Source: Planctomycetaceae bacterium (lineage in GTDB: Bacteria; Planctomycetota; Planctomycetia; Planctomycetales; Planctomycetaceae). Taken from it: a stretch of 64,000 bases of DNA. Position numbers and translations under genes: made by a program. Positions 29,130-34,097 of this stretch are shown piece by piece. The stretch covers positions 1 through 64,000 of the forward strand of contig JAKFVC010000078.1 in NCBI GenBank assembly GCA_021732415.1, in the 5' to 3' direction. A model generated the notes under the pieces. The model had not been told where the DNA came from. It saw only the letters and a list, made by a program, of their open reading frames with translations, and ran no database searches. How positions within the stretch are numbered: the stretch's first letter is position 1; every line of letters starts with the position of its first letter.

Positions 29130-30782
29130 ATGGAAACCGAGTCGCCCCCCGTGCTGAGTTTCGATTCTGGACAGGCTGACACACGCCATCTCAAGGTTCC
29201 ACGAACCGATCGTGCGTGGCTGATGCTGCCCTCGGCGGTCGAGGCGGTTGACCTTGTTCAACAGAATTTGCAGGCTCTCACAGAAGTCGATCAGGACGTT
29301 CAAGGCTGCACCCTGTCACGCTTGCGGGCGTGGACCCGCGAGGCGGTCTTTAAAGCGGCGTGTGCTTACACTGGCACATGGACGTCATCGCTGCCGATAC
29401 AAGCAGAGAATCCCGACTGGTTCAAGGAGGCACCGTGGATTGTCGGCGGACATCAACCGACGCTGTTTCATCCGGGTGTGTGGGGCAAGAATTTTGCACT
29501 CGGTCGATTGGCGCGAAAACTGTCGGGTGTCAGTCTGAATCTGGTCGTGGATAATGACACCATGGCGTCGCAGAGCATCAAGGTTCCGGTGGGAACCGTT
29601 GCGGCTCCGCGAGTTGTTCCGGTGGCCTTCGACAGTTCACAGCTGAAACAGCCGTGGGAGGACGTCACAGTCCAGGACCGGCAGTTGTTTGAGTCGTTCG
29701 GTCAACGTGCGGCGGAGACCCTGCGCAGTTGGAATTATGAGCCACTGATTACGGAATTCTGGCCGCGAGTGGTCGCACATCAGCAGGTTTCTCGACGCGT
29801 GGCTGACGGTTTCACTGCGGCCCGCAATCAGTGTGAGCGTGACTGGGGTGTGGAGAATCTCGAACTGCCGCTGAGCCACCTGTGCCAACTGCCACCGTTC
29901 TTGTGGTTTGTCAGTCATATTCTCGCTCAGTTGCCGCGTTTCTGGACGATTTACAACACGTCAGTCCGCGCCTACCGCCAGCGAAATGGCATCCACAGTA
30001 CCAGCCATCCAGTGCCCGAACTGACGCAGATTGGTGATTGGTTGGAGTCACCGTTCTGGGTCTGGCGGGCGGGAGACCAGCGCCGATCGAGGTTATATGC
30101 GCGACGCAAGGGGGATCTCGTCGAGTTGGCGGTGGATGCCCAGGAATCGCTGGGACAATTGCCGCTGGATGGGGGCTGCGATGCCCAACAGGGCGTGGCT
30201 CGGTTACAGGAATTGCAGGCCGCGGGGCTGCATCTTCGGACACGAGCATTGACGACGACTCTCTTTAGTCGCGTCTGTCTGGCCGATTTGTTTGTGCATG
30301 GCATCGGTGGGGCGAAATACGACGAAATCACTGATGACTTGATTGAGCAGTTCTGGGAATTGCCGGTCCCCCGCTATTGGACCGTCTCGGGGACGTTGCA
30401 ATTGCCGTTGGGATCGCAGCCGGTGACTCAGGCGGACCTCGATCAACAACGCCGAAATCTGTGGGATCTGGAATGGAATCCGGCTCGTGCTCTGGCGGGA
30501 TCAGAGAAGCCAACCGTTCGCCGTCTGTGTGCGGAATTCCAATCAGCCCTGGCGGTGCCGGCGAAAGACCTGTCGGCGCGGCGTTCGAAACATCGCGAAT
30601 TGTCTCGTATCAAGTCTGAGTTGGCCGAGGATGCTCGGGAGCTTATTCCCTTGGTCAAAGCCCAGATTGAGGAGATCACTCGGCAACTTGCGGCCAATCG
30701 CATTTTGCAGGATCGCGAATATTCGTATGTGCTGTTTCCTGCGGAGAAGCTGCGAGATTTCTTGACGACCGATGAGCGTTAG
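29130..30782 (+). CDS. BshC-like protein of unknown function
   Basis: A 550-residue soluble protein I cannot assign firmly. Around residues 100-150, WIVGGHQPTLFHPGVWGKNFA and the following LNLVVDNDTM resemble the N-terminal nucleotide-binding-like region of BshC, the cysteine-adding enzyme of bacillithiol synthesis. There the motif is VTGQQPGLLTGP...AIRLA followed by PVFWIA. Around residue 385, DLFVHGIGGAKYDEITD is comparable to the family's GGPAEIAYF segment. The C-terminus (about 480-540) is a charged coiled coil, as in BshC. No bshA or bshB gene is nearby. Either a BshC relative with another substrate or a remote homolog is possible. Confidence 0.5.
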   Translation: METESPPVLSFDSGQADTRHLKVPRTDRAWLMLPSAVEAVDLVQQNLQALTEVDQDVQGCTLSRLRAWTREAVFKAACAYTGTWTSSLPIQAENPDWFKEAPWIVGGHQPTLFHPGVWGKNFALGRLARKLSGVSLNLVVDNDTMASQSIKVPVGTVAAPRVVPVAFDSSQLKQPWEDVTVQDRQLFESFGQRAAETLRSWNYEPLITEFWPRVVAHQQVSRRVADGFTAARNQCERDWGVENLELPLSHLCQLPPFLWFVSHILAQLPRFWTIYNTSVRAYRQRNGIHSTSHPVPELTQIGDWLESPFWVWRAGDQRRSRLYARRKGDLVELAVDAQESLGQLPLDGGCDAQQGVARLQELQAAGLHLRTRALTTTLFSRVCLADLFVHGIGGAKYDEITDDLIEQFWELPVPRYWTVSGTLQLPLGSQPVTQADLDQQRRNLWDLEWNPARALAGSEKPTVRRLCAEFQSALAVPAKDLSARRSKHRELSRIKSELAEDARELIPLVKAQIEEITRQLAANRILQDREYSYVLFPAEKLRDFLTTDER

Positions 30783-30833
30783 AGTTGGTCGAATTGGCAT
30801 GCACAGAATTCAAGATCAACCGTTTTGAAATCA

Positions 30834-31448
30834 TCAACCGATGCTAGTGTCGGTCTGATCCTTCCACGCGTCACGGACCAGATTGAGCATCCGCTGAATC
30901 GTCCGTCGCGTGTATCCGAGTCGCTCGGCGATTTCGTCGTTGGTGTAGCCCTCGAGCTTTAACATCACGAGCGATTCCAACTCCGGGTCGTTAAGAAGAG
31001 ACAGCAGTCGAGTACACTCTTCGGCCATCAAGGCGGCCGATTCAGGGCCCAGTTCCTTCGTGGGCATTTTATCCAATCGCGAATCGGCGCCCCCGAGGTA
31101 CGTGTGAACGTCGTGCGGAGTCTCTTGATTTCCGCCCCGTTTTTCGGCGGCTTCAATCTTCAGCCGGTCATTCGCCTTCCGCAGGGTAAACGTCGCCAGC
31201 AAGTGCCACAGGCCTTCGCTGCCGTCGAGTTCGCTATAGCGACCGTCCTGAATGGCGCGACAGAAATTCTCGAAGGCACTGAGTGTGACGTCCTCTTCAT
31301 CGAACCCGCCATGTTTGGCCGTTCGCAGGCGGGCTTTGGCGAGTTGATTCATCCGGCGGGAATAGCGGTCCCACAGGGCATTGGCCGCGTTGCGGTTGCC
31401 CTGCTTCAGTTCCTGCAGCCACAGAACGACGGATTCTGAATTTGTCAC
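30834..31448 (-). CDS. ECF-type RNA polymerase sigma factor
   Basis: A 204-residue sigma-70-family factor of the planctomycete ECF type (Pfam Sigma70_ECF style). Region 2 lies about residues 20-75 (GNRNAANALWDRYSRRMNQLA, DEEDVTLSAFENF). Region 4 is at about 150-195, with the helix-turn-helix LEGYTNDEIAERLGYTRRTIQRML. It directs RNA polymerase to an unknown regulon. Anti-sigma partners commonly adjoin such genes; none does here, although an anti-sigma-like gene lies at 23330..23752. The start ATG at 31448 fits the family N-terminus. The 0.9 kb upstream of it is gene-free. Confidence 0.9.
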   Translation of the reverse strand: MTNSESVVLWLQELKQGNRNAANALWDRYSRRMNQLAKARLRTAKHGGFDEEDVTLSAFENFCRAIQDGRYSELDGSEGLWHLLATFTLRKANDRLKIEAAEKRGGNQETPHDVHTYLGGADSRLDKMPTKELGPESAALMAEECTRLLSLLNDPELESLVMLKLEGYTNDEIAERLGYTRRTIQRMLNLVRDAWKDQTDTSIG

Positions 31449-31837
31449 AACTCGTTCCAGGGGAATAGGTTAACTGCGGATTAAGGGGCCTTCTCGATTT
31501 CGCTGTAAAAAATAATCCAGATTTCTTGGCGAAGTTTGTCACATCCGAAGGCGGTTCTTCCTTGAATCCGTATGAGTTGAACCAACCCTGACCACAGTCA
31601 CAAAGTTGCGGATGGAGTTTCCATCTGACGCTGACCATACAGGGGAGTCAATCGGAAAATCGAAATGCCTAGTATCCCTGAGGAGAGACGCTGGGCGTGA
31701 GATGGTCTAATCGACATGTTCCCTACACGAGGTCCCGAATCGAGAACGAAAAGGCCAGTTACGATCGTCAGTTCGTCCTTTCACTCCGCTGATTCCGGGT
31801 TGCATTGAGAGACCGGAATCACTGGAGGGGCATCAGA

Positions 31838-31861
31838 ATGAAGCCGGAGCGAGCCGCTTGA
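31838..31861 (+). CDS. Possible leader peptide MKPERAA
   Basis: A seven-codon ORF (ATG to TGA) preceded by GGAGGGG with seven bases of spacing, an unusually good ribosome binding site for this window. It lies inside the candidate RNA, about 35 bases before the terminator stem. It may be a translated leader that influences the downstream terminator, or chance. Low confidence. Confidence 0.2.
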   Translation: MKPERAA

Positions 31862-31892
31862 GATGCGAGAAACAACCTGAGGAGGTGGCAGA

Positions 31893-31937
31893 GACCGTCC
31901 AATTTTTATTGGACGGCTCTGTTTGTTTTTTGATACA
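31893..31937 (+). terminator. Intrinsic terminator
   Basis: The stem agagaccgtccaat/attggacggctct pairs 13 bases with one bulged A, closes with a four-T loop, and is followed by gtttgttttttg. This is the clearest rho-independent terminator in the window, yet no gene precedes it on this strand. Confidence 0.85.
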
Positions 31938-32069
31938 TCACGGCCATAGCCCGGACCTTTCACGACGCGACCTACAATGCTTGACTCTCCAGAGTCGAAC
32001 GAATTTCGAAGATCACCGACTCACAATTTCCCATAGGTGAGTGAACGAAGTTGATCGAATGATAGGAAT

Positions 32070-32096
32070 TCGCCCGACTCTGGAGAGTCAGGCTAC
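32070..32096. repeat. GACTC palindrome, family R2 (CTGGAGAG variant)
   Basis: Matches 28820..28846 base for base over cgcccgactctggagagtca and ggctacg. Confidence 0.85.
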
Positions 32097-32374
32097 GCGT
32101 CGGCCATCACCGTGTGAAAAACGGATTATGCGAGTTCCGCGTCGTGTAGTAGAAGCAGCGGGAGAATCTTGGTCCCGCTTTTGAGTCGCATTCGTTAAAG
32201 GTCTTGTTGTTGGCAGGAGGCAATGCCTCATTCGCAAAAGCCCGGCATTACAAAATGGACTTGTGATGGTCCGGGGTCACAATAGAGTGCGTTGCTGCCG
32301 GCGGAGAGTATGCAGGTGCTGCAGTTCGATATCGGAAATCATTGACCAGCTTGAATGAACCGGAGTCCGTTCTG

Positions 32375-32674
32375 ATGAGACATCGCCAGGCGCTAGTCAT
32401 CGTTGATTTCCTCGATGCTCATCAGACGTTGCGCAACGTTTTTGCCGAGCAGATCTACGCCCAGGATTGGCGGCGTTATCCGGGTGTGGCCAATGCGTAC
32501 TGCACGACCTTCCTCAGCGACGCTGCCGACGAAGAACTGGTCGCCCAGACCGAGGCCGATTTGTTGCAGGCTGCCGAAAACGCCGGAATTGAGGAATGGG
32601 ACGCCGTCTGTCTGCTGGACGACGAGGTCGTGGTGATTTCAGAAACCGGCAAGTCGCACTCGACGGCTTCGTGA
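32375..32674 (+). CDS. Hypothetical acidic protein
   Basis: A 99-residue protein without recognisable domain. ATG 32375 follows CCGGAG with about eight bases spacing; an in-frame TTG at 32342 would add eleven residues. It begins MRHRQALVIVDFLDAHQTL, then a helical acidic stretch (DAADEELVAQTEADLLQAAENAG) and ends VVVISETGKSHSTAS. It is soluble and has no signal peptide. Codon use looks like that of neighbours, which supports a real gene, but conservation cannot be judged here. Confidence 0.55.
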   Translation: MRHRQALVIVDFLDAHQTLRNVFAEQIYAQDWRRYPGVANAYCTTFLSDAADEELVAQTEADLLQAAENAGIEEWDAVCLLDDEVVVISETGKSHSTAS

Positions 32675-32685
32675 TTGAACACGCT

Positions 32686-32712
32686 TCCGTGGCCGACGCT
32701 GCTAGCGTTGGT
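32686..32712. repeat. Half-copy of R7 repeat
   Basis: The sequence cttccgtggccgacgctgct followed by agcgtt matches one arm of the R7 palindromes at 23785 and 44971, with one change (ggcc for ggcg). Confidence 0.6.
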
Positions 32713-32782
32713 GTCGATGGCAGGGAGTGTCTGATGAATCTCGGTGCGAAGATAGCAACGAGATTCTTGCGTTGATCTCGCT

Positions 32783-32807
32783 CCCCTCTCCCCGGAGTAC
32801 CAGGGCG
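32783..32807. repeat. Short dispersed repeat, copy 2
   Basis: Exact 25-base match to 8..32 at the left window edge. Confidence 0.6.
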
Positions 32808-32883
32808 TTGGGAGCCAGAATCATTCTCATTTCGACGTGAAATTGACCTCAAACGGTTCGCACACAAGTTAGCAGATCCGGCC

Positions 32884-33063
32884 TTACGCTTCCGTCTGGG
32901 CCTTCGCCATGCGTGCCTGGCAGGCGGCGATTTCCTCCTGCAGCCGTTGCACTTCGCGAATATCGTCCATCTGCTGCTTGGCACCGGACAATTGCTGTTG
33001 CAATAGTGTGAGCTTCTTCTTTTCGACCTCGATCTGCTTCTTTTGTTTCTTGTTGAGCGTCAT
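32884..33063 (-). CDS. Small coiled-coil protein (59 residues)
   Basis: An ORF of 59 residues from ATG at 33063 to TAA at 32884. The sequence MTLNKKQKKQIEVEKKKL continues through LLQQQLSGAKQQMDDIREV and LQEEIAACQARMAKAQTEA. The heptad-like hydrophobics, Gln/Lys/Glu richness and absence of glycine beyond one suggest a continuous coiled coil. No membrane helix or known domain is seen. The upstream segment (cgccacg) shows no strong ribosome binding site. It is the kind of small basic-to-acidic helical protein seen in planctomycete genomes, but the function is unknown. It was missed by length-limited ORF calling. Confidence 0.6.
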   Translation of the reverse strand: MTLNKKQKKQIEVEKKKLTLLQQQLSGAKQQMDDIREVQRLQEEIAACQARMAKAQTEA

Positions 33064-33464
33064 CGTGGCGAACTTGCATCCAGAGTTGTGGGTTCGGTGA
33101 ATCTGCGCGGCAACATTGCCGAACGGGCTGCGTGGCGTCTATCCTATTTGAGACCATGTCCAAGATGCTTTTCGCAGAGGTCTGCGAGCAATCATCTCGT
33201 CAATGGTCGTGCATGGTATAGAATAAGGTTCGGCTCGCGAAAAAGAAATGCGCGCCCGCGAGCGGTTTTAATAGATGTTTGCGCAATTGAAAGCGTTTGA
33301 GAGTATGAGGGTGCGAGAGTGTCGGAGCACGGGAACTGAATTCGAGTGGACTCTTCTTTGCTCTCACACCCTCACACACTGGCACTCTCACACTTTTTTC
33401 CGACGCAAACCTTTTATTGAATCGCTATAGCCCGATTCCAATTGATCCCTCACCGCGACACCTG
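33064..33464. other. Intergenic region with one MITE-like repeat
   Basis: This 401-base gap between divergent genes holds an R3 unit at 33279..33430. The remainder has a TATAGAAT box near 33217 that could be a promoter element, though no matching upstream box is clear. Confidence 0.45.
33279..33430. repeat. MITE-like inverted repeat, family R3, copy 2
   Basis: Shares both ends and most of its arms with 10371..10524 (gagagtatgagggtgcgaga, ctcacacactggcactctca). The right end lies 35 bases before the ATG of the next gene, so the element forms much of that gene's leader. Confidence 0.85.
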
Positions 33465-34097
33465 ATGTCATCCTACTTTTTGTGTTCTCACTGCTATAAC
33501 TGGGTTCGCCCCTACAACGGGCACTGCCCGGAATGCGCCGCGGGAATCGACGTGGATCAACCCGATCCCCCGCTGGACCAATTGCAGTCAGACATCGGTG
33601 ATCTGATTTCGCCACTCGGACCGGTCCGGATTCCGCGCAGAAATCTGCCGGGACAGGGCCTGCTTTATGCGACGACGCGGGGGCTGTTTTTTCTGCCCCA
33701 TCGCCTGGAACATGTGACGCGGTTCGAAGAGCGTCATGTCGGGCCACCCCTCTTATGGCGGATTGCCGCGCTCATGTGGTCGCCGCTGTACTTCGCATTG
33801 TTCTTCTTCCGCAGCCGCGAAGTTCGAGAAGTCCAAGTGGCCGAACACCGTCCCCAACTGCTGGAATCGCACGAGGGAGAACTGCTGCCAGAGTTGCTGA
33901 TGGACAATCCCGGGGCTTTCTTCCTGCCGCTGAATTCCATTCGCGGCATCGAACGTCGTCGCGATCGATGGGTCATCGACCGAATCTACGGCGGCCGAGT
34001 CACCGTGCAAGCCGACGCCGACAAGAAGCTGTTCGACGATCGCATGTGCGACCATCTCGATTCGCCGGAATGGCGCCACATAGTCAGCCGTTGTTGA
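33465..34097 (+). CDS. Hypothetical protein with N-terminal zinc ribbon
   Basis: A 210-residue protein. ATG 33465 is preferred over an upstream start at 33417 because it begins directly at the cysteine motif. Residues 1-30 contain CSHCYNWVRPYNGHCPEC, a two-CxxC zinc ribbon. A hydrophobic segment near residues 90-110 (WRIAALMWSPLYFALFFF) suggests one membrane anchor. The C-terminal half is charged with no recognised domain (LNSIRGIERRRDRWVIDRIY). It converges with the LptF/G gene 23 bases away. I do not recognise the family. Confidence 0.65.
   Translation: MSSYFLCSHCYNWVRPYNGHCPECAAGIDVDQPDPPLDQLQSDIGDLISPLGPVRIPRRNLPGQGLLYATTRGLFFLPHRLEHVTRFEERHVGPPLLWRIAALMWSPLYFALFFFRSREVREVQVAEHRPQLLESHEGELLPELLMDNPGAFFLPLNSIRGIERRRDRWVIDRIYGGRVTVQADADKKLFDDRMCDHLDSPEWRHIVSRC

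Follow-up and report, generated by a model that had tools for sequence, protein, structure and literature searches.

The window analysed here is a stretch of 64,000 nucleotides from a genome of 9.87 Mb (G000) of a Planctomycetaceae bacterium. Near its middle, a gene of an ECF-type sigma factor and a gene of a small acidic protein are separated by a gap of 926 bp (from the ECF start at 31448 to the small-protein start at 32375), in agreement with the 0.9 kb given in a preliminary description of the locus. The genes and the features found in the gap are as follows.

30834-31448, minus strand: gene of an ECF-type sigma factor (PF07638, E 1.3e-31), divergent from the putative RNA
31537-31569, plus strand: element TGTCAC-N17-CC-N4-ATCC, a candidate promoter or binding site lying between the ECF gene and the putative RNA
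31554-31582, plus strand: 29 bases invariant in the three-genome alignment, a possible transcription start region
31641-31724, plus strand: 5' hairpin domain, from the consensus fold and paired changes
31784-31827, plus strand: local hairpin (CTCC, TGATTCCGGG / CCGGAATCA, GGAG), from a pair check in three genomes
31838-31861, plus strand: seven-codon ORF, MKPERAA
31875-31886, plus strand: small hairpin with a GAGG loop in the 3' domain, from alignment and fold
31889-31931, plus strand: intrinsic terminator, a 14-pair stem with a bulged A (31889-31921) and the T-tail TTTGTTTTTT (31922-31931)
32112-32340, plus strand: second conserved non-coding block, upstream of the small-protein gene, unstructured beyond chance
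32375-32674, plus strand: gene of a 99-aa acidic protein with no Pfam family, adjoining an ECF relative in genomes G001, G002, G003 and G073

Homologues of the small protein are encoded in 12 of 170 genomes of the family, and in five of these, the window's own included, they lie beside an ECF relative. Close relatives of the ECF factor (E at most 1e-45) are found in 6 of the 170 genomes; the G001 gene is cut by a contig end. A sequence search of solved structures at E up to 1 found nothing similar to the small protein. The model predicted for it (mean pLDDT 86) has an alpha/beta fold with weak structural matches only, headed by Cas2 and DUF77-like chains, and none of them reaches E ≤ 0.001.

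Conservation and fold of the gap

The comparative set consists of G000 and the congeneric genomes G003 and G002; all belong to one genus, and two of the three are metagenome-assembled. A DNA search with 31640-31960 gave matches in two of three congeners (93% over 298 bases and 85% over 291). In all three genomes of the set the stretch lies between the same two genes. Positions 31535-31932 are 92.5% identical to G003 and 83.4% to G002. The corresponding values (G003 first, here and below) are 87.6% and 82.0% for the whole ECF gene, 62.9% and 43.8% for its four-fold sites (n=105), and 79.2% and 66.7% for the four-fold sites of the small-protein gene (n=48). Thus the non-coding stretch evolves more slowly than the adjacent silent sites. 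In the alignment of the three genomes its conservation breaks off no more than about five bases from the T-run, and between the conserved block and the ECF gene (31480-31519) identity is 55% and 38%.

The spacer that follows (31940-32110) is 31.6% and 16.4% identical, and its lengths differ. It contains an inverted repeat at 31979-32093, with 27-base arms (31979-32005 and 32067-32093) that are 89% alike and hold GACTCTCCAGAGTC; this part of the spacer is unconserved and unaligned in G003 and G002. Identity is high again in the second block (90.5% and 79.4% over 32112-32300). The plus-strand structure of this block does not exceed that of shuffles (z 0.0 for 32112-32270 and -0.9 for 32112-32340), and it is probably the promoter and 5' UTR of the small-protein gene. 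A conserved GTCACA stands inside it at 32276.

In the consensus structure that RNAalifold gives for the three sequences, the 5' hairpin (31641-31724) is followed by a central region, which contains the hairpin 31784-31827, and then by a 3' domain with the terminator, where the T-tail is additionally paired with an A-rich strand. The consensus energy of 31641-31932, -95.7 kcal/mol, is lower than in any of 100 column-shuffled alignments, which average -72.7 (sd 4.5; z -5.2). The 5' domain alone has z -3.9 (0/200 shuffles as good), and the upstream part 31535-31640 has z -2.9, beyond all 200 shuffles. Structure in the middle, 31725-31888, is not beyond chance: z is -1.3 to -1.6, and at z -1.3 as many as 25 of 200 shuffles are as good. 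The region 31740-31940 folds at -77.4 kcal/mol, 4.35 sd below its shuffles (-58.1, sd 4.4; 0/200 as good).

The preliminary description had proposed a check for compensatory changes in relatives, and pairs changed on both sides are indeed found, in three sequences. Among the eight pairs that join 31666-31673 with 31690-31697, two have changed on both sides, three on one side and three never; none is broken. In the whole model, 4 of 103 pairs have changed on both sides, a number equalled in 6 of 500 shuffles. When the partners are slid by 1-3 columns, the share of paired cells falls from 95.8% to 39-47%. In shuffles that ignore the structure 94.5% of cells are still paired, and 54 of 500 shuffles show as many extra pair types as the alignment. 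The covariation is thin, since there are three sequences from one genus, and it supports the fold without proving it.

Local hairpins had been noted upstream of the terminator, and the one at 31784-31827 is present: 11 of its 14 pairs are invariant, three are broken in one genome each, and none has changed on both sides. The interval originally marked, 31791-31937, is too short, because it starts within this hairpin and omits the 5' domain. The 9-mer CCTGAGGAG of the small hairpin 31875-31886 also caps the 5' domain (31677-31685) in two of the three genomes and differs in G002.

The terminator is built of the arms CAGAG-(A)-CCGTCCAAT and ATTGGACGG-CTCTG around a TTTT loop. Its earlier description as a stem with one bulge and a T-run is borne out, except that the pairs number 14 and not 13. 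In a consensus scan of 30600-33600 there are 3 terminator-like sites against 2.8 in shuffles, an ordinary count; the stem at 31889-31921 has nine uninterrupted pairs and the other two sites have five each. A relaxed home-made scan of the whole 64 kb gave nine plus-strand and four minus-strand candidates. Among these 13 the terminator is third by energy (-17.3), after those at 2501 (minus strand) and 38999 (plus strand), and only one other plus-strand candidate is likewise a short compact hairpin. As site counts are not in excess, the case for the terminator rests on its tight stem and its conservation.

Folding alone is silent on the strand, because the minus strand also folds beyond shuffles (consensus z -5.8). 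The strand of the RNA is therefore given by the T-tail, which is present on the plus strand only.

Distribution among related genomes

The class of the putative RNA had been left to a search against known families. None of the 4227 Rfam families matches the 64-kb window at gathering level, and the six sub-threshold matches in 31440-32400 are weak (E 2.4-8). 6S RNA (RF00013), likewise a structured non-coding RNA present in planctomycetes, has its one match in the genome elsewhere (G000:C151:6867-7062) and none in the window. The Rhodopirellula-1 motif, listed in a table for Proteobacteria and Planctomycetes, is similar in being a candidate structured RNA of planctomycetes (PMC2864571). None of the open-access titles and abstract openings that were listed concerns a planctomycete RNA at such a locus. 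Planctomycete regulatory RNAs seem to be little described: the table of a review gives 8 for the whole PVC group and 345 for Proteobacteria (PMC9029176).

A DNA search found matches in 3 of 59 genomes, including the window's own. A covariance model of 31632-31932 was built from G000, G003 and G002. In the 170 genomes of the family, under strict filters that lose weak matches, it found only its three building sequences, with E below 1e-92 as expected; a match in G063 (E 0.275) was taken as chance. At 13 loci around small-protein homologues the model had no match up to E 10. In the congener G001 the ECF and small-protein genes are kept, with a gap of 359 bp, and the RNA is absent (no match).

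In G073, which belongs to another genus, the gene pair is kept and a 311-nt stretch has no detectable similarity to the window RNA. This stretch folds beyond shuffles (z -3.3, 0/100). It holds a hairpin of 14 pairs with a 34-nt loop and a T-run (L009, 1368-1438), whose end is about 45 nt upstream of the small-protein gene; the divergent ECF gene lies alongside. The consensus scan reported no terminator there because it was limited to loops of 3-8 nt. Thus a terminator in the gap recurs in a second lineage, while the RNAs share no detectable similarity. Among 30 genomes the G073 gap sequence was found only in G073 itself; none of the others carries its genus label.

The candidate element next to the ECF gene

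The exact element at 31537-31569 has one match in each of the three genomes. A looser form, TGTCAC-N17-CC-N3/4-A[T/C]CC, occurs in the same orientation near the ECF relatives of G003, G002, G001, G073 and G151, and G101 has the TGTCAC half only. In G151 the element stands without a small-protein homologue alongside. The pattern was composed after most sites had been seen, and its complete absence from the shuffles of four gaps (G001, G073, G151 and G101; 2000 for each) should be read with this in mind; TGTCAC alone, in the same orientation, appears in 7-25% of shuffles of these gaps. Allowing one mismatch at most, the three genomes hold 25 sites, compared with 5 for the reversed pattern. Flanks match across genomes only for the three sites at the window locus and for one further pair. 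That pair, with one mismatch and resembling TGTCACA-N16-CC-N4-ATCC, lies at G002:C201:3339-3371 and G003:C917:12671-12703. A scan of 31449-31640 found no sigma-70-like promoter.

ECF41 factors recognize target promoters of the form TGTCACA-n16-CGTC, and the neighbouring gene was the sole target detected (PMC3426412). The element at 31537 has the same first box, TGTCACA, and a second box at equal spacing, but this second box is CCTT here and CGTC in ECF41. In the forward reading the element would place the RNA start near 31575; in the backward reading the ECF gene would be the one served. Perhaps it lets the adjacent ECF factor drive the RNA.

Nature of the putative transcript

A stand-alone, lineage-specific structured regulatory RNA gene appears to us the likeliest reading, and we hold it with moderate confidence. 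The stretch probably encodes a non-coding RNA that belongs to no class catalogued so far. It shares with intrinsically terminated sRNAs a Rho-independent 3' terminator and a conserved fold with compensatory change, the latter in three sequences only. The spacer behind the terminator is unconserved and variable in length, and block 2 is conserved separately in the window lineage, which favours an RNA that stands alone. Transcription of the stretch, its start site, the direction of the promoter, ECF control and a regulatory action, all of which we infer from sequence, would combine as follows. RNA polymerase would start at about 31570-31640, heading away from the ECF sigma gene, and stop at about 31930. 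The product would measure about 290-360 nt and carry three hairpins, a long one at the 5' end, a central one and the terminator at the 3' end; most likely it would act as a regulator in the response that the neighbouring ECF sigma factor controls. ECF control is a plausible further step beyond the stand-alone RNA. Several observations count against an RNA gene: the thin covariation, the fold of the minus strand, the unstructured middle and the lack of a sigma-70-like promoter in the scan, as well as G001, which keeps both genes without the RNA, and G151, which has the element without the small-protein homologue.

Such an RNA would be three to four times longer than MicA and RybB, sRNAs of Escherichia coli that depend on sigma-E (RpoE). 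It would differ from them also in adjoining the sigma gene, and sigma control is here a guess; the likeness would be that of a terminated RNA arm of an ECF sigma response (PMC8103513). The locus offers a concrete place for testing RNA arms of planctomycete ECF factors, comparable to that of sigma-E in enteric bacteria.

The preliminary description had suggested a non-coding or a leader-peptide RNA ending at the terminator. Conservation and paired changes support the structured RNA. The leader-peptide version is unsupported, apart from the seven-codon ORF having retained its start, frame and stop in each of the three genomes. This ORF and its ribosome binding site are present as described (ATG at 31838, TGA at 31859-31861, GGAGG upstream). 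Its peptides in the three genomes are MKPERAA, MKSERTA and MKSERTA, with two amino-acid-changing changes and one silent change, and none holds a codon run of a ribosome-mediated attenuator; we see no firm sign of coding. Nor is there a long conserved ORF inside the gap, although mechanical ORFs do reach into it. Of the ORFs contained wholly within the gap in each of the three genomes, five on the plus strand (of five or more codons) have their start and stop at equal columns; the seven-codon ORF is one of them, and none exceeds 18 codons. On the minus strand (eight or more codons) the longest has 27 codons (31902-31819), with start and stop kept in all three. A short coding gene, either the seven-codon ORF with its kept frame and upstream GGAG or another small ORF, is for these reasons the least credible of the readings. 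Second in rank to the stand-alone RNA, and unlikely in our opinion, is a terminating 5' leader (attenuator) of the 99-aa protein gene, in which most transcripts would stop at 31930 and a signal would permit read-through to the gene 445 bases on. The arrangement in G073, with its hairpin and T-run close before the homologous gene, favours such a leader. So does the pairing of the terminator's 5' arm with upstream sequence (mean probability 0.13-0.53) in RNAs cut before the 3' arm, but with the 3' arm complete its probability is 0.00 in each of the three sequences. A leader is further opposed by the poorly conserved spacer of differing length, by the unstructured block 2 that resembles the gene's own promoter and 5' UTR, and by the absence of matches to riboswitch or leader families of Rfam in the region.

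The conserved stretch could instead act as DNA, bearing sites to which the ECF factor and other proteins bind, with the terminator merely insulating two units. Positions 31535-31640 hold an inverted repeat, GGATGGA-N3-TCCATCT, in addition to the TGTCAC element, and the 926-bp gap has three copies of GTCACA where shuffles have 0.18. About 400 conserved bases are, however, long for binding sites alone, and RNA is indicated by the two-sided pair changes and by conservation ending at the T-run, so we regard this reading as improbable. A structured 5' UTR of the ECF transcript on the minus strand, or an antisense RNA, is very improbable. The consensus fold of the minus strand is as far from shuffles as that of the plus strand, and the 27-codon ORF is there. 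Yet that strand has no T-run, its single-sequence fold over 31560-31940 is weaker (z -2.1 against -3.3 for the plus strand), and the sequence next to the ECF gene, 31480-31519, is little conserved.

For the stand-alone RNA, possible partners were compared with shuffles. Its pairing with the start of the small-protein mRNA was equalled by 16, 33 and 29 of 100 shuffles in the three genomes; in the window, pairing with the ECF mRNA was equalled by 93 of 100 and pairing with block 2 by 41 of 100. These results are weak because the program ignores internal pairing. A more specific version is rather improbable: the ECF factor would be dedicated to the RNA through its sole exactly conserved site in the genome (31537), the RNA would carry out the response, and its two CCUGAGGAG caps, alike in two of the three genomes, would possibly be offered to one of the genome's several CsrA proteins. 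An RNA that sequesters CsrA was rejected, as GGA motifs are not in excess (AGGA 2 against 2.6 in shuffles). GGA lies in loops 2, 2 and 1 times in the three genomes, equalled by 35, 26 and 112 of 200 shuffles, and AGG 3, 2 and 2 times, equalled by 5, 12 and 24. CsrA itself (PF02599) has 5-12 matches per genome in six Planctomycetaceae genomes; the eight in G000 include C253:375-530, C120:19751-19903 and C152:7327-7479.
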